Assembly (NCBI RefSeq): GCF_964204865.1
Contig: NC_135256.1
Coordinates: forward strand, 19,807,703 to 19,871,702
Length of the DNA stretch: 64,000 nt
Reading direction: 5' to 3'
DNA from: Styela clava
Lineage: Eukaryota; Chordata; Ascidiacea; Stolidobranchia; Styelidae
Numbering within the stretch: position 1 is the stretch's first letter; each line of letters opens with the position of its first letter. The notes under the pieces are model-generated. The model did not search any database, had not been told where the DNA came from, and saw only the letters and a list, made by a program, of their open reading frames with translations. The translations under genes were made by a program, and so were the position numbers. This document shows positions 33,249 to 55,376 of the stretch, in pieces.

Positions 33249-36200
33249 TTATTTGTCCAACCATGGGTCTTTGGCCATGTCATCAGCAAGAGGTCTATCT
33301 TCCATCTTGACAAATATCCTTTGCAGAAATTTCTTATAAAAAAAGAATAAATGATGTAAAAATCGCTTCCTCAAATTGAATCCAAAACCTATTGTTTTCA
33401 GAATGTGTGCATGTGTTTATTTATGAATACCTCCAAAAACAACAATATTTTCCGTAATGAACATTATGACGTAGATACAAATAACAACTAATTACAAAGA
33501 TTGATGTGTTCAAACTGCGACCAGCGGACCAAAAGTAGCCCAAACGAAAAAATTGTGCGGCCCACGAAAAAATGCCAATTTCGAATAGTGTGCTGCCCGC
33601 CAAACGAGTTTTTAATTTAGTTCCAGCTGGTACGTGTGAGTAATTCAAATTTTTTTGCGTTATAAAGCCATACTTGAGTCCAATTTATTATCTATATCCA
33701 GTGGTGCGATTCAAATTTTTTGTCAGTCGGTTCTTTCACAAAAGTCATATTTTTCAGCCGGTTCTGTTACAAACATAACATTGACAGTAACCAGTAATGC
33801 TAACCAGTTCGCTGATCTTATAAAATTCCGTGAGACGGTTCTATAGAACCGGTGCGAACCGGCTGAATCCCACAACTGTCTATATCTATAACGTCACAAT
33901 GCTCTAGCACAGGGGCGGGCAAGGTTTTTGAACCAGGGGCCACAAATTTTGCCAACCCAGTCTGGCGGGCCATGTAAGTATGACGTAAAAAGTTACATTT
34001 TATGAACAATATTTACAGTGTTACAAAGCAAATGTGGAAAATAATAAGCCGCGTGCCAAAACTAAGTTTAACCACAATCAAATTCCTTGAGCTATTTTTA
34101 GCTTAAACATACAATTTGGTTTCAGTTTGGTTGTGGCATCATCAGGCGGGTCAGATTGAATTACCCAACGGGCCGGATTTGATCCGCGGGCCATACTTCG
34201 CCCATGTCCGCTGCAGCTTGTGCGAAGCGCTTAACGCATTTCATAAGATCAATACCCAAAACTTTCGTGCCTGCAACTACTAGAAAGTCTATGTCAAATA
34301 GAGGAGCGGACCGCGGTTTCACCCAGTTATTAGTATCTGGCCCTACTGTATTGAAGGTTGCACACCCCCGGTATAGAACATCAGTGCCGCCTGCCACTAC
34401 AATCGATTCATTATCATCATATATGCAACAAGAGAGCTATGCTCAAATATATGAACACGTCACAAGGTGTCGCTATTTTTTATTCTGACACATAAAAAAC
34501 GAATCTCTTGAAGTCCACAGAAATTTTTGAAATAAGTAAAAGTTATAGCATTCTGGTGAAGAAATAAATCTTTAACTACTGAAAATTTCAAAGCAATTGG
34601 TCCAGTATTCGAAGAGACAAGCGATTTTATCATGACGAAGAAAAAAAACAAGAACAACAACATAATATTGAAACGATCTTTATGTCCACTGACGTGTCCA
34701 ATAATATGAGAAAAGAGCTTAAATATACCTTCAAGCCTTCTGGAAGACTATTGTCCCTGTTAACGAGCCCCTTGTGCTCAATTGCGATAATTTTTCCAGG
34801 AAGTAAAAATACTATGAGTAACGGTGATAACTCTCTGAGAAAAGGTGGATAACCCTTTACCATCTCATAAACCGTACATCCGACGCTCCTGGTGGGAATA
34901 AAGTAATTTTTATATGAATGGAAAAATGGGGGTGATTATGATATATATAGCCTATGTAAGCCTATTTTGAACAATGCAATTTATATGAGAAAAAACGATA
35001 TATAAGCCTATATATATATATGACTCCTGGTGACTATATATTTTACAAAATAAACTACACAAATTTATGGAATTAAATCTTGGGATTAGATGTTGGTGAA
35101 AAATTACCTTGTAAAATTTATCCCTATTCTAACGATGATTCACTGAACTCACCAGATATCAGATCTTTTTCCACCGACGTTTCCTCTCATAACCTCAGGG
35201 CTCATATAGCATATTGAACCTAGAAAGGAGAGATATGTGAAGTGCTTCCTGGGTGATTATATTGTTTAAAACTTAAAAAATCTACGGCCACTCACCTGCT
35301 TTAGAATCAGCTTGTTGGATCAGTGTTTCCTGATCGTGAACCTTAGATAATCCCATGTCGGCTGAAACATATTTTCATATATATTTAAAAAAGAAAATTG
35401 GCCTTTTATACAATATTAAAACGTCAATTACGTTCAATGCATAAGCGTGGCCAGGGGGCTTGAGGGACTATACCCTCCAAAATTCAACACTTTTTCAAAT
35501 GCAACTTCAGCAAGATTTGCAGTAAGACGTAAATTCATATGCCTTTACCAACGACATTTTGCTCTAACTTCAACGATTTACTGAAACCGGACGTTTTTTG
35601 GCTTGCTGTCAATAATCCTTTCCCCGAAATGAACCAACCGAGTTAGATGGAAATGCGCGCTTTTATGCCTTGGATAACTTCGACATCAAAGTAGGCTACG
35701 TCTGTTGTCCGATTCTTTGGGATATTGTTAGATATCAGTGGCTACGTTTATCTGCCTTTGTTTGAGAAAAATGCACGACTGAGCGTCGTATTAAGTCATT
35801 ATACAAAAACAATTGTCCCTTCCCCATCCTCAAATTTTGGGCTGGCTACGCTCTTGCTTCAATATCCAGAAATACAGAAAATTTGCAACCGTTTCGGAAG
35901 GATGACAAATATTTTGTCCTCCTACGGTTATTAAAATCGTAGCAGCTGATTCGTAATATTGACTGTGACAACATGTTTGTTAGAGTTTTTTTACTTTCAG
36001 GTTAATGATCGACTACCCTATACATGCAATTTATCCTCACCTAGTTTGGCAGTCCCTTCAGCATCTAGAAGTACATTGCCGCACTTTATGTCGCGATGAA
36101 TCACACCATGTTCGTGTAAATATACCAATCCACACAATATATCACGGGTGTACTGCTTGGCTTTTACTTCAGGTGTTAGTGAATTTGTCTTTTCCATAAC

Positions 36201-39200
36201 ATCAGAGATTGATCCCTGGTATAATTATATAAATAATTATACTTTTGTTTGCTTTAGGTTATATAAAATATTTGGAGCAGCCACTATAATATTACAAATT
36301 TTGCAACTGTCTCTGCTAGGTATGAGACAAAAAATGCTCGTTTCACGTTGAGGACATTTTTAGAACGTTATTAATATATTTATGAATAAACAACTGGTAT
36401 TTCGGATCCAGGTCGAACAGCGACCGGAAATTTTTTTCTAATTGAATTACTCCAAGATGATAGCTTGAAATAATGCTCATTACTAAAAGCATTACAAAGT
36501 GTAACTCAATTGCATCTCTAATTTTTCTGCAAAAATTAGCTTATTGTGGATTTTAATTGTATTGTTAGAAAAGTCCTGGGTTAGGTTAGTTAAATGAGAG
36601 TTGCAAAAATGCTTGATTACAGAAAATGGGCTTTACTTTTCGAAATACACAGCAAGTAGCCTACATAATATATATTCGTATTAACCTGCATTAACTCCAT
36701 GTACATATATATTTTTTCTTTATTTCCTGAACATCCATAAAACTTGACAATATTTTTATGAGTAAGTTTACCCATAAATTTTACTTCATCTCTGAGACAC
36801 TGTTCTTCAATCTATGTTACAATACAAAAATTAGGTTTACAAGTATTCCATTATATACTACGAATCATGACTGAACTGATTATATTCGATATATAATAAT
36901 TATAATAAGTTTGTTTACTCCGGCACGAGGAACTTCTTTTACAGCAAATTCCAAGCCATTTTGATCAACAGCGCAGTATACAGCTCCAAATCCTCCTCTT
37001 CCCAACAGCTGTTTTTGTTTCCATGGATGAGCAATTACTGTAAACATGTGTATTTGACAAATAAAACAGAAAATGATATTAAAAAAAGTAGGAAAAAAAC
37101 AAAACGTAATTCTCTAGAACTATAGTAAGGACTTCAGTTACCTTTGCTTGTTATGCATTGTTAAAAGGTGAGGAGTATTGTGAGTATTCAGACCCGTGTA
37201 TGGCATCTATACTTACCTATTTTGGGTGGTTCTTTTTCGGGCGAATTTCCTGCTCCTGGACGACCTTTCATAGCAACCTCGATAAGTTCCATAAAGAGTA
37301 TTTCAGCTTTCAATTTCTAATAGTACAAAATCAAAAACACAAAAATGTAATAATTATATAGTATCATTTGCCATTCCTCGGTCATCAACTAACTATCCGT
37401 ATACTACCAATTTTGAAAATAAATATTCGAAATATTAAAATTTAATAGCATATAATTTCTAATAGTTTACTAACATTTTCTTTTGGTCAAGTGACTCGAA
37501 CATATTTTGTTGAAAATGCTCGAGTAAGATTAATACCAGAAATAAAACAGATAGCAGTATTGAAATGTTATTATAAAGCCTTTTGCTGACCTTTGCCAAT
37601 TTCATTTTTTCCTCCTCCGTCCCACTAGTACTACTGGATGGTGAATCTATAACTAAACGTGATATTAGGATTGTTATTGTGGAATAAAGATGACATATAT
37701 ATAAAACTTACATACAAGTTTATTCTTTTTGTACGTTTATGCTGACTAAGAGCACTACAACAGCTTAAGTATTTAACCCTCCCATTCTCACATACCCTCC
37801 CAATTTCAAACGACTTAAGGCAGTGCGTCTAGTGCTTGTTCTGACATATCTTTCCCAAAAACATATATATACAGTTCTAGAGTCGCCTGTGGTTGTTCGC
37901 CCCTTTAATTATTAGTTGAGAGCTTGTGCTCAGGCTTTTGGCAAACTTGGATTAAAAACGTTATGGCAAAATTATAATTCAGTGAAGCTAATTGAAAATA
38001 AATATACTTGAAATTGAAAATATATTTATTAAATTTTATCTTGCCCGCCTTATTTTTTCAAAACTTTTTATTTATTTCATTATTGACGTTCCATCCGCGT
38101 ATTTTCAACGTTTTTTTTAAACAAAACATACTTTTACCTTACTATCTGTTATTTATAGCTTATTGTTAACTAGTTATTCTTTAGGTGGGTGCGAGAATTC
38201 TAAAATAGGGGCGCGGCATAAAAAGTTCGAGAACAACTGTTATAATTTTTCACCTTTCTTTAATTTACTCAGTCGAACTTGTTTCATGATGCTATAACAC
38301 GTTTTTTGTGCTTGTTGTCCAGCGATCTTTGTCATTTTCTTTGTAGCAGCTCGAACCGCTTCATCCTGCGTTTATAAATTTAACACAATATTGAAATGGC
38401 AATATTGTAATTGACTTTGATTTATCTTTCAAATATATTCTACAGCAGTGTAGGTCTACTATTCAAGCCAAATTAATATCTTTATCTGTCGTTACGTAGG
38501 AGCACAAAAAATAAAAGGGTAAATCGCAAGGCCCAAACAACATGCATATCACAATGTGGTTGGACCTGCTTATATTTAAGTGTTGTTGTTATATCTGCCA
38601 TCTATTGTGAAGTTTGCATGTATGGAAGTTGTTTAGTTTGTAATACATTTTCGGTATATCCATAAGACTGTACATTGAATATCGCCTGTGACGATAGATA
38701 TTAAGCAACGAAACATCGCCCATCACTGGAAAATTAATAGTGAACTACTAACGTTATCAAGCGACTGCAACTTTGATACTTCCAACACAGCTTTTGCCAC
38801 TGCTTCACACATATTTGCAACGGCAGTCTTTGCAGCCTGAAAATTGAAACACAAATAAAAAAGAGGGACGACTCATTCTAATAAATGAATTCATTAACAA
38901 GAAAACGTCACTCAAGTTCACGGTATATTATTAAATCTATAGATAATAAGACTATGTGGTATAGTATGTTTGCACAACTTGAAAAAATACCTCATACTTA
39001 TCTTCATCTCGGTCTCGTTTTGGAATTACCCCAGCCTAGATAAAAACATGAAAAGTAATATTGGTCATAATCAACCTTCAAAAGTTAACTTGTTACATTT
39101 TAGGCACGTGACAGGTACTGAACTTATTTGTCATTAAAGAATCAAAGATTGTTTGTTTCATTTATATGCTTTAAATCTAATTTGTTCGACTTATATCTGT

Positions 39201-40198
39201 ACAATGTTGTCAATCCACGTTAGTGAAAATTCATGAATAGATTTAATAGCAACAATAATAATAAAGTCTTCATCAATTTCCGCGTGTGAATTCAAAACTT
39301 AACTATAAAATAACAGTTAAATTTAATGTGTCATATTATTCAATCGGACATTGAAAATTGATATCATCTGTGTCGAAGCGGGTATGAGTACTAATATATC
39401 ATATATTTGTCTGTTACAGAATATCTACATACGGATAAAGATTGGCATAGAATATTCGCATATGGAATAGAATTGTGTACTTTATAGACAAATGTCTTTG
39501 TCTCCTTCAGTGTAATCGTTTTATTGCGTTGTTTATGTCATGCGTCACATATACGGAGGCCCCCGCATGTATGACTGCTGCTATACGCAGCGTATTCCCG
39601 ATACGGCTCGGGTATACTGTGGTAATGTAACACTAATCCAAGACAGATCTATCTTACTCTGATCCGTTTTATTGTAGTGGCGTACGAGTAATGATTCATA
39701 TGACAGTTGAATTGCCAAGTTCCAACGAATAGGCTTTTTTAGAAAATGTACCTAAAATATTTTTTAAATTCTTTAGGCAAACCTGATGATTTTCTACACA
39801 GTTCGAAGGTTTCTTATTGTTTCGGCATGCTTTATTGCCTCAGTTGATTTGCGTTTGATTCATTTGCACATAAATAGCATTATTATACTTCTGGGCAATT
39901 TTTATAAAAACATGGGGGCGTTTTGAACGTGGTTAAATTACGAATACTTCAGAAAAGAAATCTAAATTTACGCCTTCTTATACGCCGAGGTAGTAACTAT
40001 AGTTAGCATGAACTAGATAGAATACTAGCAGTAAAACCTCCAAAGCATCATTTTGCATCATATCCGTATAGTATCGATAGGATCGAGAAATTCAAGCATA
40101 CAACAATAAACTACCACGTTTTATACAAAATTGGAATAATTATGCTATCAATGTACAATGTAGACTTCAGGGAATCAAAGGAAGTAGAAACTCACCAT
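33249..40198 (-). CDS. MEKK-like Ser/Thr protein kinase A with unrecognised helical N-terminal domain
   Basis: Thirteen coding exons give 398 aa: 40196-40198 (ATG only), 38991-39035, 38753-38836, 38254-38365, 37591-37646, 37217-37316, 36919-37037, 36686-36811, 36041-36215, 35296-35361, 35153-35219, 34729-34888, 33249-33332 (TAA). Residues ~17-82 form an Ala-rich helical domain with the MCEAVAKAVLEV motif. A Ser/Thr/Glu linker follows, then the KLKAEILFMELIEVAM motif, then the kinase domain (~137-398): GRGGFGAV loop, catalytic FAVK (Lys167), DEVK, HRDIK (Arg256, Asp257), ADMG in place of DFG (275-277), MSPEV. The C-terminal FLQRIFVKMEDRP matches FLRRIFVEARQRPSAEELL of MEKK2/3, so this is a STE11/MAP3K-type kinase expected to phosphorylate MAP2Ks; that role is inferred. 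Genes B and C are paralogues. The last intron (33333-34728) holds a MITE, a hAT fragment and repeat R. Confidence 0.9.
33525..33625. repeat. hAT-type GGCCCGC-rich fragment (intron of kinase A)
   Basis: GCGACCAGCGGACC, GTGCGGCCCACG and GTGCTGCCCGCC are degenerate versions of the subterminal words of the complete hAT copies. No termini or target duplication are visible. Confidence 0.35.
33699..33878. mobile_element. 180-bp hAT-type MITE with perfect target duplication (intron of kinase A)
   Basis: The left end CAGTGGTGCGATTCAAATTT pairs imperfectly with the right end, which reads CAGTTGTGGGATTCAGCCGG on the other strand. Perfect direct repeats TCTATATC lie at 33691-33698 and 33879-33886. Internally, CCGGTTC/GAACCGG words repeat several times. 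Confidence 0.88.
33909..34205. mobile_element. Degenerate hAT-type element (intron of kinase A)
   Basis: The left end CAGGGGCGGGCAAGG, the internal GGCGGGCCATGTAAG and the right-hand GGGCCGGATTTGATCCGCGGGCCA...CGCCCATG follow the plan of the other GGCCCGC-rich hAT copies. No target duplication is recognisable, so the exact ends are uncertain. Confidence 0.55.
34425..34690 (-). repeat. Dispersed repeat R, copy 2 (intron of kinase A)
   Basis: This is the inverted partner of 30045-30315, sharing CACAAGGTGTCGCTATTTTT, CGAATCTCTTGAAGTCCACAG and CAAGAACAACAACAT. The two copies face each other about 4.1 kb apart, one outside and one inside the last intron of kinase A. The minus-strand open frame shared by both copies (containing FCGLQEIRFLC) is short and unlike any protein I know. 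Confidence 0.8.
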
Positions 40199-42043
40199 GT
40201 TATGGTCCAAGACTTAGATTCTTATTGCGAAGAAGCTGCAAAATGTTTCCAAAGTATTTGTTGAAATCTAATTATCTAACGCAGGAGAGAAAACAACGCA
40301 TTCGCGACTATTACATCAAACTGTAAGATTAGGGTAGACAAATTGCAATTTTGTTATATTTCAATATATCACGTAAATACCTGAAATAAGTCTACAATGT
40401 TGTACCAACACATTTCACTACTTATTTCACAGAGAGCGATTCCATAAGATTCAACTTCTGTTTTTCCACTTGTTTGCCGGGTCCGGAACAAGCCGAACGT
40501 CTCAATCGCAAGCGTCACAATTTTCGGTTCCTCTTACACTCAAAACAACAAGAAGTTCTATTTTTATCACAAAGCAGAAGTATGAGCACTACGAAAATGA
40601 CAATAAGCGCATTGATGCGTACCTTTGTTACGGTTGAAAAACAGTAATAAATACTGGAGTAAACCAAATAGATATAACATCGTGATCATCAGAATATCTG
40701 GTTACCAGCTATGATCTACCGAACATACATTAGAAGGTACACACCCTATTCATCTGCCCAATCAGGAAACTTGTTATCAGAAAAAAGAGTTAGTAAATAC
40801 ACCAACATCACAAAAGTAGTTCCTCTTTGGAGTCAAATCGTTAATTACTTGAAGCGTTGCAGAGATACGAGAGTGGGTAATATTTGCTCTGCGCTAACAC
40901 GGAAGTGTGTACTCACTTTTTCAGAGCCTATATTTGCCTTTTTGTATTACTAACCAAATTTGCTGTATTTAAATCTGTGCACACTTGTGTTTTACATACT
41001 CTTCGGCTTTCATTCATTTATACATATGTGCATTTTAACTCATTTATATTGTATGGATAATTACTTGCAAGAATATATCAATTTTGGTATATATTTATGG
41101 CAAATATATGATGCTAGATAGCAACGAACAAATATTTAGACTTGCGCATGAGTAAACTTTATACCTACAGGATTTTCAAGCCGCATTCAGATTTTAACTA
41201 CCATACACAGCTAGAATGTACTTGAGTTGTAATCAAACGAAAAACTTTGCGTTGGCTATAGGTATGAATTCCTGAGAAGAGACGATATGCGTGGGTGCGA
41301 ATGTTTGCGTGTAAGGATCGAATTTCGAGAATAGATTTCAATAGGACTACAATAATAAATTGACTCGTACGTAACGAACAAGGTATCTGAAACCTTCATA
41401 AAGCAGAAGTATTATCTGATGATCAAACGAAGGTTGCAGCAATTGGGCGTTTTTCGGCTTTGCCGAATTTGAAGCAGACGTATGGAGGGATTATACAGCT
41501 GGACATATCGCGTACCGTGTGTAAATAAAATGGGCGACTATGTCAAACATCCCAGTATAGTTCTAACGCCCAACTAGATAGCTTACTTGTCAGTCCGTAA
41601 ATATGAATGTAAAGTGGTCAAGATAATACACGTCATTGAATTTTCTTCATTACAGTGATGGATAAAGATATGGGAGGGCAGACAATCCGCACATTTTAGC
41701 AAGGTTTATTATGGATGACGTGTCTTTTTTGCTAGTTTAGATGCCTCTGTATCTGTATTAGCATATTATGCTTATATATTTTTATACATTGCCTCATACA
41801 AATTTGGCCAGAAAATTGGAAAAATCGTATCACGAATGTCTACGCCAAAAACATGAAAATTTATTACGAATAATAATTAAAATATAAAATGTTCAATCCT
41901 AAAATGTCTTCCTTGATATACAGCTACACCGCAATAAAAATCCCTTTTGATCGTGTAAGATTTTTTTGAATTGCCTTAAAAAGAAGAGTGCATAGGGGAC
42001 CATTATTGAAATACAGCAAAGGAAAAAATCTTGAAACTGAAAG
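40199..42043. promoter_or_regulatory. Head-to-head intergenic region of kinase genes A and B
   Basis: The start codons of A (minus) and B (plus) are 1.85 kb apart, so both promoters and 5' UTRs should lie here. I found no convincing TATA box, repeat or conserved block by eye. An 80-codon plus-strand frame at 40711-40953 has no domain or splice context. Confidence 0.5.
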
Positions 42044-45000
42044 ATGGTAAGCACTTTTCTTTTCGAAATACTAAGATTGTAAATAGGCAACCCGCTAAAA
42101 AATTCGTTTTATTTTTAGGGAAATAAAGCGTCAACGACGGCATCTCCCAGCAAACAAGAAGTACGTAATTACAAATTTTTGATTTCTTAATTTATATTTG
42201 ATATAAAACATTATATAAATCATATAAAAAAAGGATTTCAATTCTTGTAAATAATGTGTGATATGTTCTGATTATTTTCCTTCTGTTCAACTACAGGCAG
42301 CAAAAAAAGCACTTGCTACAATGTGTGAGGCTGTTGCAGATGCTGTCCTAGTGTGTGCTCAATTGGAAGACGAATGGGCTGAGGTTTATATAGTTGTTAT
42401 TATTTTATTGACGTCATGTTTAACCTGTCTATATTCTGAGTTTATTCAGTCTATTGTTCATTAAGTTGTAAGTTCGGCTCCCATGGATTAGGCATCCAAT
42501 TCTATCCACTTTTATTCTTTATAAAAAACGGCGCTCCCGAAGTATGTGCACCAAGATGGCCCACAACTAGTACCCTAACCTGGTACACATACTATGTTCA
42601 GGTTGTGCGCCATCTTGGTGCACATACTTCTGGAAGTCCTTAAAAACTGCTGGATTTCCCTTGGAAATATACCTTTTTGATGATTATTCTCAACACCGTA
42701 ACCTTAAATCTCATAATCATAACACAATACAGCTTTTTGTAATATTTTGATAATATAATGGTGCTTCTACTAAAATGATGTGGATTTGTTCATTCAAGCT
42801 TTTTAGATTTCACGGAAGGGGGACCGAATTTCTATTAACATGTTTTTTTCCTAATTTTTTTTTAAAAGATATAACCCAGTTATTACCATTAATCCAGGAA
42901 AATAACATAAAGTCAGCTGCCAGGGAAGTTTTGAAAATATGTGAGAAACAAGTGACAGGTTCCGCTACCGAACTTATAAAGGCAATCAGGGCAAAAAAAA
43001 TGGAGCAAAGTAAGCGCCCTCGTCATCTTATTTCTATAATATTTTAGAATTATTCGTAAAAAATATTTCTATTTGATCTTGAGTGTGAATGACAATGATA
43101 GTGGTCAATGCAAGTCAGGACTTCCACTTTCAATTGCCAATAAAACAAAATGATGGTAATACAATATGGGAAACCAACCCTACAAAAACTCGAACTTCCA
43201 ATAATCAAGGGTCATGTCCCTAATGTCACATAAAAATTTAATGAAAATTTTAACTATTTATATCATTTACAGTGATGACGAAAGGGCAAGGGCAAGCTGA
43301 AGCATTCAGAAGGGTAAGTTGAATGTGTCCTCGTTGGTTTCCTTATACGAGTATATATATATGTATATATATTTTGAAATGATAAACAACTACGTTTGTT
43401 TTAAATGAAAGAAATTGCAAGCTGACCTATTGTTTTTGGAATTATTGAAAGTTGCTATTGACCAACAATCTGGCGAAGGGTCTTCAAGATCGGGATCACA
43501 ATCTGGAACAAGTAAGTATATGAACGTAATATATCTGTAGACTGAAAACGTGGGGTTTACCGAGAAAAATTTTACATTTTAAACAGCTATTTCACACCCA
43601 TGGAGTAGAAAGGACGATTTGGGAAAAGGAGCGTTTGGTACGGTATACGCAGCAGTTGATAAAAACGGATTGAAATTTGCTGTCAAAGAAGTTCCAAAGG
43701 CCGGGGTATGAGACATATTGATTTAACTTATAATTTTAAAACAGTAACAACAAGCGCGTTTGTTTGCCTTTTAATTTGTATTCTTGTCCAGTTTATTTTC
43801 AAAATATAAACGAATGCTTAGGTGCAGGAAAGCTGCTTAAGAGACGAGGTCAAATTGCTGGGAAAACTATCGCACAAAAATGTGGTCAAATTATACGGCT
43901 GTGCTGGTGATAAGGAAAAATTTTACATGTACATGGAGCTTATGCAGGTAAATCTTTAATCAACAAATGTTATCATCGTTTATTGTAATTCCAAATTTAG
44001 TATTTGCTACAAGTCCCCAAACCTCTGATCGCATGTCATGTCTAGTCACTGACCATTTTAGTGAATTCCGAGTTCGATAACATCTTATTTCTGAGATAAA
44101 GTCATGCTGAATCACTGTAATTATGAGTCACAAGTTGTGTGGCCGGTGTTCAGAGTCAAAACTCGAGTAGACTAATATTCGATTTCATAAACTACAGTGA
44201 AATGAATAATATGAGACTTGAAACTTGATTCTGTGGGTCTCGTGTAGTTTTGTACCTCAAGTGCTTCTAGTGGGCGTAGCATGACAATTTTTTCACATGT
44301 CAAACTCCTAACCTCCACCTGACTATGCCATACAAAAAGTACGCCACTACGATGCCCCATCACGTCATAGAGCTTGCCAAATTATACCTACGATCGCCAA
44401 AATGGCATCTGCGCCGCCGATAACGAACTCGATAAGACAGCGATCTCTCTCATATCGGGATGTTGCGGCGAGAAAACGAGATAAATAGCCTATTCGATTT
44501 CGGGTGATCGTCTACGCGTCTTGGATGACAGCTCGTATAGTTTGGAGGGCCTTATTACGTCACTGTCATGCCACGCCCGTTAGAAGTACTTGAGGTACGA
44601 AACCACACTAGAGCTGATTCTGCAACGTTTACGTGAAGCGTTTTCTCTAACTATTTTTATTCTAATACCAGGGATCCGTAAAGGATAAAATGGAGAAAAG
44701 CGGAAAACCTATACCGCAAAATTTCGCCAAGAAATACACTAAAGATTTATTGCAAGGACTGATCTATCTTCACAAAAGTGACGTCATTCATCGTGATATC
44801 AAATGCGCAAACTTGCTATTAGATGTTAATGAAACAGTGAAATTGGGTAATAAAATCATAATCATCTGTTTTAGGTAGTTTGATTTTAAGGAATTTTTCA
44901 TTAGAAGCAAGCAACGTCTTGTGCATTTACACGAAAGTGGAGGATATTCACTTGTAAATGAATTATGAAGCGCTACGAAAATTATAGAATCATTCAATAT

Positions 45001-46964
45001 GTAGGTACATTGTTCGTCACCTACTTTGTGTTCTTGCTGAATGAAGTATACAGGTCAAACTTCAACGTATCACAACTGGCATAGTATCCACACTGCAAAA
45101 TGTTTTGCGCAATTCAAAAGACAATAAACCTTTGTGATGCTTGCTTTTCAGCGGATATGGGCATCTCAAAAATTCACGATCACGCGACAATGATAAGAAG
45201 TGCAGACGACACCGCAGGTATTGAAAATATGAATTTGTAAATAGTTACATAGCGATGTCACGAGTTATCTCTGCAACGAGGGTGTGTTGACCAAAAAATG
45301 TATATTAAATATTTTTGCAGGAACATTGCCATGGATGAGTCCTGAAGTATTAAGTGGACAGGAAGGGGGCAAACGATCTGATGTTTGGTGAGTAATTCGA
45401 TTTTATAATTATTTGCTTTTTACTGCGAATATGAATAATATTAATTCAGAATATACGTTTTCATGTTGCATTCAACCGTATTTAATGGTTGGTATTCTTG
45501 CGCCAGGCCGTATAATAATCCATGCTGCATTATTTTTCGCAAAATGGCAAAGCAAGCAGATGAATGCCGAACTACTGTTTGCATGCAAATTTTATTTGTG
45601 TTAAAGCAAAAATATTTACTGTACCGTCGACGATTGATACCTGTGAGTGAATGATTAACTTGGTATGGGTGAAACGCTGCTTCATTCTGAGCTACGTTTT
45701 TATCGTAATTTTCAGATGATATGCAAACTTCTACTTGTCAGTCCCTGTAAAATATACTTTGATATATTGAAATGTTAATACTTTCTACTTTCCAACATTT
45801 CCATAGTAAAAGACCGTGAGATGACAGGAATATGAAAGTTTTGAAAAAGGTCTGATGCAATACATGCATTTCTTCTCATTGTATGAGGAGACACTGTCCC
45901 CTACTGCGCTGGTATTGTATGGTTTATTTCCGATACCGTTATCCTGATGCTCATGCTGCGGCGTGTGAATGTGAATTGTAGCATACACTGGCGTCAATGA
46001 AATTTGTGTGCCAAAAAATTTCTTTGAAAATATTTCGCTGCCACTTTTTTCTCAGTTTTGTTAACCTGATCCCGTCTACCGCCGCATCTCCTGACCAACA
46101 CAAATATATATCTGGTAATTTCTTTATACCCATTTACACAGTAGCTCGCATTTGAATACATTTTAATTAAACGTAAAGATTAAAATTATATAGTAGATGT
46201 AGATAGACACTCGAAATTCATCACGTTGCTATATTGCAGGAGCGTTGGCTGTACTGTTTTTGAAATGGTGAAAGCAGCAGCACCATTTCAAGAAGAACTA
46301 CCACCCATATTATTCGCAATTATATTGCCGAAAATGATTCTTGGTCTTGGACACCGAAAACTGGTATCGGATCAAGATGACTTTGGTCCAGCATTACAGG
46401 TGAATGGAAGCGTACATTTTGAAATACATGGTGTATATAAAGTCTGCGATTTAAAATTTACCAATCGACTTGGTAATACATTTTTGTATTTGTATAAAAA
46501 TCCTGTATTAATTGACGAGAACTTCGTCGTGTTCTTTAACCTTTTAGCATGCATTAGTTAATGAGCTGAAAAATAACAGGCAACGATTTTAAATTAGTAA
46601 AATGTAATAGAGATGTACAGGGTAGGCCTATCCACAATGGCGCTGTAGTCTAAGAGAATTAGCAGAGAACGTAATAGAGATGTGGTGTTTTAGTCTAGAA
46701 TGCAATACAACAATTATTGAACGGGTTCTGTGTTTTTTGCCTAACATTTGCCTTTCCAAATATTATTGAACCAAAATAGCAATATGCATAGGTAACACTG
46801 GTATATATATTTAGGGAATTCAATGGCAGTAACATAATTTAAAGTAGTTATAATAAAACAGAGTATTTGTTATATTTTATCAGAGTTTCCTCCTGAAAAT
46901 TTTTGTCAAGATGAACGATCGACCATTTGCTGAGCAGATCGCAGATCATCCGTGGGTGAGATAA
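42044..46964 (+). CDS. MEKK-like Ser/Thr protein kinase B with helical N-terminal domain
   Basis: Thirteen coding exons give 392 aa: 42044-42046 (ATG only), 42119-42160, 42297-42383, 42898-43009, 43273-43313, 43412-43511, 43587-43705, 43822-43947, 44672-44846, 45152-45217, 45321-45387, 46240-46399, 46884-46964 (TAA). Exon 4 is placed at the acceptor before 42898 because the upstream AG at 42868-42869 would give an immediate in-frame stop, and because this choice gives the same 112-nt exon as in A and C. Residues 16-82 are the helical domain (MCEAVADAVL; KQVTGSATELIKAI), 96-111 the KLQADLLFLELLKVAI motif, and ~132-392 the kinase: GKGAFGTV, catalytic FAVK (Lys162), HRDIK (Arg251, Asp252), ADMG in place of DFG (270-272), MSPEV, FLLKIFVKMNDRP. 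Except for DMG, the catalytic set is complete, so it is probably active. An intron carries a hAT MITE (44234-44614) and another a family P MITE (42530-42639). Confidence 0.9.
42530..42639. mobile_element. 110-bp palindromic MITE (family P, copy 2; intron of kinase B)
   Basis: GGCGCTCCCGAAGTATGTGC at the left pairs with GTGCACATACTTCTGGAAGTCC at the right, and the arms include CACCAAGATGG. The flanks TAAAAAAC (42522-42529) and TTAAAAAC (42640-42647) are an 8-bp duplication with one mismatch. It shares ~23 bp, GTACACATACTATGTTCAGG and beyond, exactly with copy 1 at 10724-10836. Confidence 0.85.
44234..44614 (-). mobile_element. 381-bp hAT-type MITE (family T, copy 1; intron of kinase B)
   Basis: Long inverted ends: GTAGTTTTGTACCTCAAGTG at the left and, read on the other strand, GTTTCGTACCTCAAGTACTT at the right. 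Perfect target duplications TGATTCTG lie at 44226-44233 and 44615-44622. The interior matches family T copy 2 (61819-62272) in reverse orientation, e.g. GCGCCGCCGATAACGAACT and TTTCGGGTGATCGTCT. Confidence 0.88.
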
Positions 46965-49692
46965 GCCGAAAGCATGACGTCATCGAATTCAGAAATTGTG
47001 GGCAGAGTTGGAGGTGCCCAATCTGTGTTAATTTAAATTTTTTGATCATTTATTAATAACCCCATACAAATTATAATGCACATAACATATTATTATATTA
47101 ATTGATGTGTCGAATTAATTTTACGTTATTGATAAGAATTGAATGAATATTGTATGTACAGAACTGTCGTATGGTTAAATTCATAGTATTCAACCATATT
47201 TGAGAAGTCGTGTTAAATTCAAAATTATTTTATTATGCACCCTTTTGCTGCATTTTATTTATTGTCGCCGCCAGATTTCCGCAGATTTGGCAAGCAGTAA
47301 GTTGTTTACCAAGTGTTCAGGTTTAATTGAAGAAATTATATGCACATTCAATAGTAGTAAATGTATTTTATTCATATTAAATATTCGCAGTTTCCTGCAA
47401 AAAATATGTGACTCTATGTGTCAGGACATGATCTGACCCTCTATGTCACGATGATGTTCTATTATGTTCATATTTAAACGTTAATTCAATGATTAATTTT
47501 ATCTTCTTTCTTCGAATTCAAATCGTCGTTTCGTTTTTGAAACTTTTCACTGAATATTTGTTATTTGAAGCGCGTGGAATATTTTCACTATTTGTTGCGC
47601 TCAGAATTGCATCATGCTAATGATGAATCCAGTCAATAAACAAGTAGAAAACTTGCATTAGCTGATTCTCTAACCAATGCCAAACAAACTAACCCCAATG
47701 CTATTGTCCAATAAACGAAACAAGCATCATTTAAAAAATTAGTAGCCATGATAAAGCTAACAAAGAATCGTAGATCTCATGTTCAAAAGATTCTGTGCGT
47801 TTCACTAGATTTATTATAATTCTATTCGAGTTACTTATGTTGCATTTAACCCTAATGCACTTTATTAATGTTTATTATTAATGCACTTTCAAATGTCGTG
47901 TTTTCTCCGTAATTTTAATTTTTGTCTCTTAATATCAATATATTGTTTTTGAGCCCCATAATAAATTTATGTAAAGTAAACTAAAATTACTTTATCTAAT
48001 GACTCGGATGTATTTTCTGCTGTATTTTCAGAAAATCGTGTATTGTTTTTCATAGAACGGCTTTCCACAATTTCTCCTGTTAAAACTCAAACATCTCTTG
48101 GACAAATTATAATTCTCACTGATTTACAAAATTATTATTTTTTTTCTTAGCTCAAGTAGATTTTCATTATTCTTTTATCTCTATACATTTGCGCTTGAAT
48201 GTATCCTGTAAAATATAATAATAAATATTACCATAGTAAAACATATTGTAATGGTGCGACGTGCGAGTTAGATAATGGGAATATTCTGAAAAGTTTAGAA
48301 TCAGAATCCATTTATATGTAATAATGGAATTTCAAAACCTTAGAGATTATGCGTGAATTTAATATTTGAGAGTTCAGGGTTGCTTTCGTCATAATGCTGA
48401 ATTCTTGAATCATAAACATACCCAAACATTTGTAGCCTAAAGTCATGGGTTGTTTGCATTGATGAGGTTTAGGTAACCATGCCGAACTGAAGAAAAAAAT
48501 TCTGATTTGTCAATAAAGAATTTACATAAGCATTTCAAATAGAAGTCCGTTAAAAGAAAAAAATCATCTGCGGATGGGTGCTTCAAATTATTAAGATTTT
48601 AAACTATCCATTGGTGAGTTTGAAAAAACAGTCAGACAAAAAGTAATCGCAAGACCGATAGCAATTCACAAATATGAGGTTATAAACATTACAAAATATT
48701 TGTCTAATTTCCGACAAAATGTATTACTTTTGTTTCAACAAAACCAAACCCAGCCTCCAAAATTTTAAGCACCTTGTGGTATATATATGTATTCACAATA
48801 TCCTTAGAACATTTTGTGACAGCCTTATTGAAAATAGTAGAATATCCGTGTCTTCGTTTCTTTACCTCGTTTGCCAAGCAGGTAAAATATGGAAGTTTTG
48901 TTGATTAGGAAAGATGAGTCCAGTTGTAACGTCGTATTTTCATTTATACGAACAAAAGAGCATGAACAATGGACAAGCGAGGAGTACCAAAGTATTTGAA
49001 GTCTGCAATTGGTCGGCGATAGGTTACAAAGAGACGATATTTGCAAAACTGGCGAGTTTTGAAAATAAAGATGACAATACAATAGGTGAAATGTCGCGCG
49101 TAATTTAACGAAACCGAAAAGAGGAATTCACGAAAACAAAATTCACAAGTCATAACAATAATAACACAGATGTGGTGGTACTATTTTCGTATAGTATGTA
49201 AATTTATTGTTTTGATTCCTAGTGAGAAAATATTTGCAGATTTTCTAACCGCCAAGTATATTACATCTTTCTTTTATATATGACAAATGCTATTATCAAC
49301 GGCCGCTAGGCGTTATCGTGTTTGGTCTAACCATGAACGTAGTTAGAGAGATATTGCGAAACCCTCGATCGGGATTCTACCACAGATAATATATACTCAT
49401 TATCCGTTATGTTACTTGTTATCCGAATGATATTATATAGTATTCAAACAAACTCATTTATGAAAACGTTTGTATCTCACATGACTATATAACGGATTCA
49501 TAAATCTTTTTTTAGCCTTTTTTAGTTTTTCCCATCTATGAGGTGTGCGAAACAAACAACTTGCCTAATATAAAGATAATCGGGTAACTTTTTTCTATCG
49601 AACTGATATAAGGTGCTTTATGCTATAAAAGACTTCCTTTCTCCAAAATTCGATTATTTTATCGCCTGTGTCATCTCTGTGATTACAACATC
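46965..49692. other. Intergenic region between kinase genes B and C
   Basis: This holds the 3' UTR of B and the promoter of C. No coding domain, repeat family or RNA gene is recognised. Several 60-85-codon open frames at 48.7-49.15 kb overlap on both strands and lack splice or domain support. Confidence 0.5.
49624..49630 (+). promoter_or_regulatory. TATA box of kinase gene C
   Basis: TATAAAA, in the context GCTATAAAAGAC, lies 63 bases before the ATG at 49693. A start site ~30 bases downstream would give a 5' UTR of roughly 35-40 nt. Confidence 0.6.
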
Positions 49693-52600
49693 ATGGTGAG
49701 TAGCCATATTACTTGCATCTGAGAGCAATAGTTTTAGCATTCACTCAGTGCGTCTCGAATTTTAAATTTTAAGATAATTGAAGGTATGCCAGAAATAGGA
49801 AATAAATTAGTTTCAAGTCGTTTTTAGATCTGTAAAGTATGCCATAAAAATAAATTTAAAATGAAGTGTATATTCTGTTTTATCAATTTTGCTAAATTTA
49901 TTCTGTAAATATTTTCAGGGAGCAAGTGTCACAACAGCAAGAACTAATCAAGCGGTAAAAAGGTTTTTAGGAATTTTTAAAATAAGTTTTATAAAATTGA
50001 CAACTTAGCAAATCGATCGTTGGATCACATATTTCCAACATCTTGAGCTTTTAGTAAGATTGTCTATTAATAAAATAAATATTCAAATGAGTAGGCATAT
50101 GTATATATTTTGTATCGTTCTAGATATATTTGAGTTTTAGAATAGTTTTGATTTCTACATCACAATCCAACCTAAACACTTTATTATCTTACCACAAATT
50201 AACAAGTTGACTATCGCAGATATTGCGACCGAATGCGATGCAATCAAAAATTTTCATTGATTAACTGGTCACTACATCCGCATCATTGTTCAAATGAATT
50301 CATTTAAACTTGCTTGTATCAGTTTTATCTTACTTTCTAGGCAGCAAAGGCATCGCTTGCCAAAATGTGCGAAGCAATCTCTGAAGCTGTTTTGGAGGTG
50401 GCGAAAACCGGAGGACCATTGAATGTTAGTCATGAGATAGTTACATTTATATGAAATAATTAAAGATAATTATGTTTCAACTTGAGCATATTGGATCAAT
50501 ATGATAAGCAATAGTAAAATCATTACTGATTGCTCAGCTGATACAATCCATATACAAATGAAACGATGATGTGGTTAGCTGATCCTATATCCGTAGTAAA
50601 AATATACGAGCGGTCGGGGCCGCAATAGGGAAGTTTTCCTCTCCGTGGGTGGTAAATATGTGATATTATATATATCTTATTAAGTTTAAGCACTTTGTAA
50701 TATGTTGGTGCAATTCAAATTTCCTGTAATCTGATGGCGAGTCAACTAAACGTTACAGGTAACTTTCTATAAGTCTTCTCACACGTGGTAGAATATGCAG
50801 TTTTTGTATTGATTTTCTTCGACCAGACATTTAGAATTCATACTCATATGAAATAATGATATTATACAGGAGCAGCTTGTCGCGATGGCTGCAGCCGATG
50901 TGGCTAAATTGGCCGAGCAACAGGCGGGAAAATCAGCAGCTGAACTGACTAGAATTATCCAGACCCAAAGGCTGAAACAAGGTTTATTTTATTTTTAATA
51001 ACATTATAGATGATTTATACGCAAATGAAATAAAGGCATTTATTCGCAATCCGTTTCACTTCTGCTTTTGAATTTCTACTATATGGCGACCCGAAAAAAG
51101 CGGAATCCAGACCATTTAGACCAGGGGTCGGCAGACTACGGCCGGATCCGGCCCGCGGAGCAATATAATCCGGCACGCGACGCTTCACTGAATTATATTA
51201 ACGAAACAGCTGTATTGACGGTTATATTCTTTACGTGACAGAATTTGTTTTTAGACACTAAATTATACTATAACCTAACAAGTATATAATTCAGAATTAC
51301 GCGTTTAATGAGCCTATAGTTGATTATAATCAGACAAATGGCAACAGAAGGTAAAAAAGTTGATGCTGAGTGCAAATGGTTTAATGACGCAGAAAATATT
51401 CAAATGATCAGTCTTCGCGCACTGCTTGTAATTTAACTGAAATCTGTGTGGAAATATGTGATTCATTGGCCATTCCTTCGGTTTTTAACTTTCTAAAAAT
51501 ATGTGCGTTTTTTCCGTTTTTTTTTTGAGTCATCCTGTATGATTAAATCGTCTTGAATTGCCCCGTTTGTAAGTCATTGAAAGAGATGTTAGTCATCGTC
51601 AAATATTGATTTGCTTTGTTGCAACTCACAAAACTACATTAAAGTTTTTTTCTAGTAAACTGAATCAATACGAGGCTACTTTTATATGCAAATATGTCTT
51701 ATCAAACAACACCGCCGGGAAATAAAAGCTTTGAATTGAAATAAACATTCCGAAGAATGAAATTTTCATTTGGATTGACCAAAGTGCCACGCGATTATAT
51801 CAGCTTCATAAGTACAATAAAATCTAGAGGACAATTTTTACAACCCACGCCCCCAAACTGAAAGCACATACCTCTATTAATGTCGGTGGACATGTTGATA
51901 ACATAGGATAATTTAGTCCCGTGCCCGAGCAATCTCTGACAGATTTTAAAAGGGTGGATTTTTTATTTAACAAGAAAGGGGCCAGTTGTACTTTTTCACG
52001 CTGCTGATATCAGCGAACAAACTATAAGGGCGAATTTAATATGATTTTTATGTCTTTTTTACATTATAGGGCCTACATTCTCATAGATTTTTCAAAAAAT
52101 AAACTAAACTTTTTATATATTCTATCCCCAATATTTTATTACATTGTCATTTTTTTTTCAATTTTAGCGTTGAACTTGAGAGGAAGTCAAGGTTCCAGTG
52201 GTAGTAACAGCAACGGAAGTGATGGATCAAATCAGTTTGTGGAGGTTTGTGAGTTTTGGTTATAATCTCAATTTCTGAATAAAATCGGTTTATTGCTACC
52301 TTGCATGCTATATATTAGTGGTTACTATAAAATGGACAAAATACAACTAAGAAAAATCAAGTAAATAATCAACGTATGCAAAATGTCCAGTGATGTGCAA
52401 ACATTCTAAAACGAAGGCACTTTTAACTTTTGGCAATAGTAGCTTTGGAGAGTAACAGATATACAGCGTATGAACATTTTTCGTAATGTATGTAGGGCCT
52501 ATATCAATATATCATCATCAACATGTGGATAAGTCTAAACTAAGATTTTCTATTAAAATGACCTTTATGATTCAACTAGAAACTTGCAACAGACCTACTG

Positions 52601-55376
52601 TTTCTTGAAATGTTACGAGTTGCGCTCAATCAAGATTCGGATGATGATTCAGATTCCGAAAAAACTGAGAAGCCCCATCGAGGTTAGTAATATTCAATAT
52701 CAAATACTCTTGTAGCATTTTGTTTATTAGATAGCAGGAAAATTCCATTTCCTCAAAAATTAAAGTAAGTTAAAACCACGAGTTCCAAAAATGTTCCACA
52801 AAAGAGAATTAGCCTGAAAATAACGAAAAAATTTGTTTTTTACATTGACAGCATAAGTTACAATTGATCAAACTACAAATTAGTAAATAAATTATAGTTT
52901 TTAACCACTGATAGCAACTCGCACCAACCTTTACTGGCCAATATGTTACAATACGTATGTCAAGGTGGCAAAGAGTAACAAATATCGTGAATACTGACAC
53001 TTCTCCAGAAATCCAGCCTATTTATCATCACTTACCGTATATATATATATATATATTTTTTTTTTCGGTAAAAAATTTATGTTTCTACGTATTACATCAA
53101 CGAATACTTCGACAACCATCGGTGGGAGAATTTAAAATTCTTTTCGATCAATATTAATTTAGAAATCGCTCATCCATGGACCAGGAAGGAAATGCTTGGA
53201 AGAGGTGCCTTTGGAGCTGTGTACGGAGCAGTAGACAAAAATGGATTTGAGTTTGCTGTAAAAGAAGTACCGAAGGATGGAGTGAGTTAAGCTGTAATAT
53301 AATCCATTAATTTTACCAGGTTCTACAGAAGCATTATGACGTTGTTTCAAAATAAGTACCGATAAATTTCTAGATGTAATCAAACTTTAATTGCCCAGCA
53401 GATTTATTGAATATTTTTATGTTATGCTTAAAGAATTCTTTTCAAATAATCAAATAAGGCTGTACTTTAAATATTTATTTTAGGTAGAAGAAAAGTCCCT
53501 TCGCGAAGAAGTGAAAGTGTTGGGAAAACTGTCGCATACAAATATTGTGCAGTTTTACGGGTGTGCTGGAGATAATCAGAAAATCTACATGTATATGGAA
53601 ATAATGCAAGTAAGATAAAATATAATTTTTCGTGTTGTAATCACTCGTCGCGGCATCACAAAAACTTGATAGCCAGTAGAAATCCTTGTATTGTTACGTA
53701 GGGTAAACAAATATTCGATTGTGCAGTTAGACTGAAAATAATGATTCAAATAATTTAATTTAAAATGACCACATCAAAATATTTCCCTAGTCCACAACTG
53801 GAAGGTACATTAGCGTCTGTCGAGGGTTTGTTATATAAAATAATACATGATAAAATTTAATTTCAGGGTTCAATCAAGGACATCATAGACAATTCCGGAA
53901 AATCTATTCCGCAAGGTCAGGCACGTAAATATACCAAGGATCTAGTTCAAGGACTGGTGTATTTGCATCAGAACGGAGTAGTTCACAACGACATCAAGTG
54001 TGCAAACGTTCTTTTGGATTACAACGGAATCGCTAAACTGGGTAAATAAACTTTTACCCTACAAGCCTACACACATAAAACCATTTGTTAGCATTATGAC
54101 CAATCAACAATACGGCAATAGAATGTGTGATATATTTTAATGTTCATCAATTTTAATTTGGCTTGGTACTGGAAAATAGGATTTCCAATTCATTTCCAAA
54201 AAGGGGAAATTCTACAAGCTGGATTAATACTTGGCTAACTGCGACTGTTTCTAGCGCTGACAACAATACGATAAGACAGTTAACGATTTTCGAGAATAGC
54301 CAGAATATTTCAATTTTCTCCGAATATAAACTTTGCAGACTTGCATTTAACCAACAATCATGAATTAATATTTTACCTTATTTTTTTTAGCTGACATGGG
54401 AGTGTCAAAGAAACATGATCAAGAAACCCTGATTAGCTATACCGATGAGCAAGTAGGTAAGTATAAATCATATTTATGCAGTTATTTCAAAAAGAAAATT
54501 GACCTGGTAACCATTCATGACAAAATCTTTTTTCTACCAGGCACTATCGCGTGGATGAGCCCCGAAGTATGCGAAGGACGTGATAGCGGGAAGAGATCAG
54601 ATGTTTGGTAAATATGGTTACATTTGCTATTCTAATTGTTGAGTGCCATAAATGAAAATATCTAATTTGATACAGGAGTATGGGATGTACTGTCTACGAA
54701 ATGCTCAAAGGCAAACCGCCATTTGTTGATCAACTTCCCGCGATTCTTGTATACACTGTTCTACCACAGTTGATAAAGGCACTTGAGCACAGAAAACTGG
54801 TTGGTCGACAAGAAGACTTTTCGATTCCGATCAAGGCAAGTATTTTTTTTGTTAAAATTTTCTATTAAAACACCACAGCTATAAGTGCTCAGTTTGCTGA
54901 TTTATTGTCACATGTACATTTGATGAAAGGGTAGGCTATTTACCGTCTGTTACTTGAAATTGCTGTATATATCGTGGCAACTGACCATTTTTGAACGGTT
55001 CCATTACATTCGAACCCACGACGATTGCACCGGCATACTGTTGCACCTATGAAATTTTTGTTGTTTCACGGATATTTGAACCCTAACCCAGAGGGTTAGG
55101 GCCTAACCCTAACCCTAACCCATGGGTTTAGCACCCTCATATATAGATTGAACCCACGAATATACACTTGGGTTCAAATGTACGGTCACTATTTTAAACA
55201 CACCAGTGTAAACATTGAAGCACTCTTTTTGAAACCTATTATGTAGTGAAATTTAGAATTTAACAAAATTGACACACTTCTCACTTTTTTTAAAGCGGTT
55301 CTTGCTGAGAATATTCGTCAGAATGGAGGACAGGCCACTTTCTGAAAACATTGCTAAAGACGAATGGCTACAATGA
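49693..55376 (+). CDS. MEKK-like kinase C with HND catalytic loop and helical N-terminal domain
   Basis: Thirteen coding exons give 402 aa: 49693-49695 (ATG only), 49919-49954, 50341-50424, 50870-50981, 52168-52244, 52580-52682, 53163-53281, 53484-53609, 53867-54041, 54391-54456, 54541-54607, 54676-54835, 55296-55376 (TGA). The last intron uses a GC donor (GCAAGT). Residues 14-79 are the helical domain (MCEAISEAVLEV; EQQAGKSAAELTRII), followed by a Ser/Gly/Asn linker, the KLATDLLFLEMLRVAL motif, an acidic DSDDDSDSE run, and the kinase (~142-402): GRGAFGAV, catalytic FAVK (Lys172), HNDIK in place of HRDIK (Asn261, Asp262), ADMG (280-282), MSPEV, FLLRIFVRMEDRP. Lys172 and Asp262 are kept, so activity is possible, but loss of the HRD arginine removes the usual contact with a phosphorylated activation loop. 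It could be a non-RD-type constitutive kinase or one with weakened activity. Confidence 0.9.
51122..51509. mobile_element. Truncated hAT-type MITE (same family as 28794-29252; intron of kinase C)
   Basis: It starts CAGGGGTCGGCAGACTACGG and follows the 28794-29252 copy through GCGACGCTTCACTGAATTAT, GTATATAATTCA and GTGCAAATGGTTTA up to AAAATATGTGCG. There the homology stops without the right terminus. Confidence 0.8.
55081..55122. repeat. Interstitial telomeric repeat (TTAGGG)n in the last intron of kinase C
   Basis: The tract reads CCCTAACCC-AGA-GGGTTAGGG and then CCTAACCCTAACCCTAACCC: a head-to-head junction of G-strand and C-strand telomeric repeats, about 42 bp in all. TTAGGG is the ancestral metazoan telomere repeat. 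Confidence 0.85.

Follow-up and report, generated by a model that had tools for sequence, protein, structure and literature searches.

A cluster of three kinase genes in the ascidian Styela clava, here called G1, G2 and G3, raises the question of which MAP3K they descend from and what has become of its regulatory N-terminus, the part in which MAP3Ks mainly differ from one another and which sets both the signal that is read and the MAP2K that is served. The cluster lies in a stretch of 64,000 nucleotides (RefSeq assembly GCF_964204865.1, contig NC_135256.1, positions 19,807,703 to 19,871,702 of the forward strand), hereafter the window, and a fourth member, G4, was found on C10 of the same assembly. 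The explanation that we favour overall, with a probability of about 0.6, is that these genes are duplicates of a MEKK2/3 (MAP3K2/3) gene in which the PB1 domain has been replaced by a different, probably helical N-terminus that regulates a MAP3K branch.

The kinase domain gave the first indication of descent. Its best match among the kinases of the Protein Data Bank (PDB) was MAP3K2 (9p6a), with 145.7 bits for G2, followed by ASK1 with 111.8. A profile search of PDB yielded the same order (174.9 for MAP3K2 vs. 139.6 for ASK1), and no MEKK1 or MEKK4 kinase was present among the 60 best PDB kinase matches listed. When the MEKK2 kinase was used as query against the Styela genome, C3 gave the best single match, with 42% identity, in a long open frame that looks like MEKK4, and the exon pieces of highest identity (53-74%) were located on C16. 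The C16 locus carries a PB1 domain (MAP3K2 PB1, PDB 2cu1, E 3.4e-14) about 8 kb upstream of the kinase and on the same strand, together with a stretch that resembles, weakly, the aN helix of MEKK3 (PDB 4yl6, E 0.81). The C16 kinase has 94/255, 97/254, 106/254 and 99/254 residues identical to G1, G2, G3 and G4, respectively (37-42%); the identity between G3 and the C3 kinase is 33%.

The introns of the kinase region are more telling. Their phases agree between the C16 kinase and G1-G3 in seven cases out of seven, and five of these introns (phases 0, 1, 1, 2, 0) fall at identical alignment columns; a sixth, of phase 0, is off by one column, within a loop that contains gaps. G4 keeps six of the seven, having lost the one just before the kinase. 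Because these positions and phases are common to the MEKK2/3 locus on C16, G1-G4 very probably arose as duplicates of a MEKK2/3 gene and lost its PB1 domain. We stop short of a firmer statement since the introns were compared with a single MAP3K gene. The genes had been called MEKK-like in a preliminary description of the window; that term holds, and can be sharpened to a most likely derivation from MEKK2/3.

The genome also holds a PB1-bearing kinase on C6, presumably MEK5, beside the PB1-bearing MEKK2/3 locus. A search of the assembly for the PB1 family returned five places, which look like aPKC, TFG, MEK5, Par6 and one fragment without assignment; the intron-split PB1 of C16 was not among them and was located by reading the sequence. 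The MEKK4-like frame of 1741 amino acids (C3:8149501-8156000) and the MEK5-like PB1 kinase of 463 amino acids (C6:21650001-21653000) are long uninterrupted frames, unlike the C16 kinase, which is split into seven exons.

In place of a PB1 domain, 131-142 residues precede the HPW of the kinase. Exon 2 encodes a short variable start, exon 3 a segment A, exon 4 a segment B, exon 5 a variable linker, and exon 6 a segment C with a polar linker that adjoins the kinase. The motifs reported in the preliminary description are all present, MCEA and the KL....LF.E...VA of exon 6 being invariant. The family-mean hydrophobic profile of segments A and B peaks at 95 degrees, with shuffle P values at 100 degrees of 0.011 and 0.040, respectively, and segment A taken singly gives P<0.05 in all four members. 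Segments A and B are therefore probably amphipathic helices able to pack, as far as this periodicity indicates. Pfam scans of the N-termini of G1-G4 detected no PB1 domain, no RING/SWIM-type region as in MEKK1 and no family at all above cut-off. A profile made from three N-terminal sequences found nothing in PDB at E<=10, and one made from four found a single match, a designed DARPin (E 1.6). Among the entries of the PDB library are PB1 domains of MEKK2/3, the aN peptide of MEKK3 and a chain of 896 residues from ASK1 (8qgy); with regard to an ASK regulatory region, neither profile matched this last chain. These Pfam and PDB profile searches bear out the earlier statement that the N-terminus has no sequence match among the known MAP3K regulatory domains. 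A search for a wider origin covered contigs of viruses and genome contigs of bacteria and archaea; none of the 50 and 100 pattern stretches that came up was confirmed as a relative, and literature searches, judged from their listings, gave no paper on such a kinase family.

The myristoylation-type pattern (PS00008-type) calls for Gly2 and a small residue at position 6, and the start MGxxx[STAGCN] occurs in two of the four proteins, G2 (MGNKAST) and G3 (MGASVTT), the chance being about 0.014 for each. N-myristoylation of G2 and G3 can be suggested from this pattern only tentatively.

When the N-terminus of G2 was searched against the 376.6-Mb assembly, one extra locus was found, in which the three segments follow one another from A to C. 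This is G4 (C10:9531262-9537002), which encodes 403 amino acids with the same order of parts as G1-G3; its exon 4 measures 115 nt and its AAK motif is degenerate (VKKTLATMCEA). The family of three first described therefore stands as far as the cluster is concerned, but it was not complete. The nearest relative of G4 is G2, with 86% identity in the kinase and 62% in the N-terminus, and the similarity of the two genes goes beyond the coding part, by about 40 bases ahead of the ATG and about 200 past the stop. The G2-G4 dN/dS ratio is 0.16 for the kinase and 0.43 for the N-terminus; by the latter value, the N-terminus is under purifying selection. Exons 6 and 7 of G4 are fused via an 18-nt in-frame remnant (C10:9533037-9533054) that still has GT at its start and AG at its end, apparently a shrunken intron that is now coding sequence.

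Among G1-G3 the pairwise identity is 59-62% in the kinase parts and 30-38% in the N-terminal parts. Since the similarity extends over the full length and tblastn matches between the loci are strong, it is not due to chance, in agreement with the earlier view of paralogous MAP3K-type kinases produced by local duplication. With full-length G3 as query, the C8 and C10 loci showed at least 46% identity and the other kinases about 25-36%, among the 103 of 324 candidates that were scored. Three genome searches with the N-terminus placed it beside these four kinases only. A kinase tree, which took in 5 of the 12 fetched kinase loci and left out the C16 kinase, grouped G1-G4, with a long stem and a support of 100/100, in one clade; support for the deeper branches was weak.

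Several observations weigh against the explanation given above. As to descent, the remaining phase-1 intron precedes the kinase and lies 7 vs. 5 codons before Trp, at the alignment edge, so that its match is loose; the comparison was with C16 only, and the pattern might occur in other intron-bearing MAP3Ks; the MEKK4-like gene on C3, being one open frame, is unusable as intron control; and the C16 PB1 and kinase exons are presumed to form one gene. As to the kinase, the DFG of the C16 gene is replaced by DMG in all four proteins, and G3 has HND instead of HRD. As to the N-terminus, Pfam gave sub-cut-off matches to UFL1 (24.5 bits vs. a cut-off of 27, E 3.8e-5), Exo70_C (best E 3.1e-4) and DUF5685 (E 0.034), each in two of the four members; segment B taken singly reaches P<0.05 in only one member of four, and segment C is hydrophobic, not amphipathic (P 0.70). 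The starts of G1 (MAGVIPK) and G4 (MGNSQPT) lack the myristoylation-type pattern, and dS is saturated in every pair but G2-G4. Finally, no copy beyond G1-G4 was found in the searches of the 376.6-Mb assembly, which are insensitive to diverged copies: those made with the N-termini of G1 and G3 gave their own exons and each other's segment A (E 2.57 and 3.16), not G2 or G4, and diverged copies may for this reason have been missed.

The changed residues of the kinase bear on the alternative that survives best, although we consider it unlikely, namely that G1-G4 are not active MAP3Ks but scaffolds or weak kinases, the helices being the functional part and the activity altered or lost. The DMG of all four proteins and the HND of G3 would fit, as would the changed alpha-G region, where the C-lobe carries, beyond PPF, seven residues that the C16 gene lacks. 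However, all four retain the catalytic Lys and the Asp of both HxD and DMG, CDK8 is active despite its DMG, and between G2 and G4 the kinase has diverged at the slower rate, its dN/dS ratio being below that of the N-terminus. At the APE position the four proteins have SPE. We infer that the catalytic domain of at least G1, G2 and G4 would still work as that of a MAP3K.

Less probable still is that the old MEKK2/3 N-terminus, the CCM2-binding aN helix and its linker, is present here but diverged past recognition, segment A being aN. The two occupy the same place at the protein start and are both short and helical by pattern, and the C16 locus retains the weak aN-like stretch described above; MEKK3 binds CCM2 through this N-terminal helix together with PB1 (PMC4526114). 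Against this, local alignment of segment A of the four genes with the MEKK3 aN and with the C16 aN-like stretch scored no better than shuffles (P 0.16-0.90), and the identification of segment A with the CCM2-binding helix is not supported by these scores. Moreover, the four proteins searched by tblastn on the C16 locus met, below E 1, kinase exons only, and PB1 is an alpha/beta fold, whereas the region considered here looks helical.

A true relationship of the N-terminus to the helical regions of UFL1 or Exo70, gained by exon shuffling, is very improbable: the matches, each in two members, are below the curated cut-off, the others are scattered over unrelated families, and the PDB profile search was empty but for the designed DARPin. 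We dropped UFL1, Exo70_C, DUF5685 and the other Pfam matches, which were below cut-off or weak and found in at most two of the four members (nine further families match weakly in one member each), and we read them as similarity of composition between Ala-rich helices. It is just as improbable that the N-terminal exons are a separate gene or a prediction artefact, the kinase transcript starting elsewhere, since their order, phases, splice sites and ATG-only first exon are kept at four loci and they stand beside no other gene in the three genome searches.

If G1-G4 are PB1-less duplicates of MEKK2/3, a mechanism can be proposed. Members of the MEKK2/3 family are known to contact MEK5 through PB1-PB1 pairing. 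Given that no PB1 was detected in G1-G4, they should have no access to this route and would not be fed to MEK5 in this way. The helical N-terminus would take over from PB1 as a dimerisation or partner-docking module, bringing kinase domains together for trans-autophosphorylation, with the possible assistance of an N-myristoyl membrane tether in G2 and G3. The outcome would be a MAP3K branch under its own helical N-terminus, acting via self-association or a private partner. That the helical module serves self- or partner association has, from the sequence, a chance not far short of even. A fuller version, in which this is an undescribed MAP3K subfamily whose MEKK2/3 PB1 was swapped for a self-assembling, membrane-tethered helical domain, uncoupled from MEK5 and rewired, in this lineage, to a different receptor system, is doubtful as a whole. 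The origin of the cluster is well supported; its function is our proposal. PB1-less kinases with a probably helical domain suggest a rewired branch of MAP-kinase signalling. In a genome that also has an intact-looking MEKK2/3 and a MEK5-like kinase with PB1, a MEKK2/3 duplicate that gave up PB1, retained its kinase and gained a different conserved N-terminus offers a natural experiment in the rewiring of MAP3K specificity.

The gene models (Table 1) were obtained by joining exons by splice site and reading frame, and the count of 13 coding exons includes the 3-nt first exon. They agree with the preliminary description in the number of exons, strands, matching phases and seven exons of identical length: exons 4, 7, 8, 9, 10, 11 and 12 measure 112, 119, 126, 175, 66, 67 and 160 nt in G1, G2 and G3, with equal phases. 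All introns of the three genes but one are GT-AG (35/36), the sole exception being intron 12 of G3, which is GC-AG. In view of the conserved splice sites and phases, the exons of each gene are presumably spliced into one transcript. G1 and G2 are arranged head to head. A first coding exon made of the ATG only, with the GT donor next, is found in G1, G2, G3 and G4 (window 40196-40198, 42044-42046 and 49693-49695 for the first three).

Table 1. Genes and coding exons of the kinase cluster (positions in the window).
Feature	Position	Strand	Description
Gene G1	40198..33249	minus	13 coding exons, 400 aa, start MAGVIPK
G1 exon 1	40196..40198	minus	bare ATG, GT donor directly after
G1 exon 3	38753..38836	minus	segment A (AAKTAVANMCEAVAKAVLEV)
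G1 exon 4	38254..38365	minus	112 nt, segment B
G1 exon 6	37217..37316	minus	hydrophobic segment C (KLKAEILFMELIEVA) and linker
G1 exons 7-13	33249..37037	minus	MEKK2/3-type kinase domain; 119, 126, 175, 66, 67, 160, 84 nt
Gene G2	42044..46964	plus	13 coding exons, 392 aa, start MGNKAST, fits myristoylation-type pattern
G2 exon 3	42297..42383	plus	segment A
G2 exon 4	42898..43009	plus	112 nt, segment B
G2 exon 6	43412..43511	plus	segment C (KLQADLLFLELLKVAID) and linker
G2 exons 7-13	43587..46964	plus	kinase domain
Gene G3	49693..55376	plus	13 coding exons, 402 aa, start MGASVTT, myristoylation-type pattern; intron 12 with GC donor
G3 exon 3	50341..50424	plus	segment A
G3 exon 4	50870..50981	plus	112 nt, segment B
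G3 exon 6	52580..52682	plus	segment C and linker
G3 exons 7-13	53163..55376	plus	kinase domain, HND replacing HRD

Two stretches of the window, 33910-34208 and 34427-34705, are repeat-like and probably mobile elements; sequences that match them at 71-94% occur at several sites around the C10 paralogue. Between 56001 and 60000 the G+C content is 0.45-0.47 vs. 0.36-0.37 on both sides, and several open frames of 111-166 amino acids are present. A scan of the window with Rfam gave no match at gathering score. COX1, sought in the assembly as a check of the tunicate assignment through the mitochondrial code, did not turn up. Elsewhere in the assembly, kinase genes in single frames form large arrays at C10:4066003-4380025 (at least 21 places, one with a stop) and C5:2654668-4435071 (at least 14); for the one member read in each array, the closest PDB kinases were IRE1.

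Compared with known systems, G2 and G3 resemble N-myristoylated kinases in beginning with MGxxx[S/T], a likeness at the level of the pattern that is absent in G1 and does not extend to G4. With ASK1 (MAP3K5) the cluster has the MAP3K fold in common, ASK1 being its second-best solved kinase; it differs in that ASK1 scores 35 bits below MEKK2 by profile and in that its own N-terminus found no match to an ASK chain in PDB. From MEKK2 and MEKK3 (MAP3K2 and MAP3K3) the cluster differs in lacking PB1 and a recognisable CCM2-binding aN helix and in having a different N-terminus, DMG in place of DFG, a shorter beta3-alphaC loop and a longer alpha-G region. On the other hand, MEKK2 and MEKK3 are the solved kinases closest in sequence to G1-G4, the cluster kinases have a FL.RIFV...RP-type C-lobe motif like theirs, and the seven kinase-region introns of G1-G3 agree in phase with those of the MEKK2/3 locus, five of them at identical columns.

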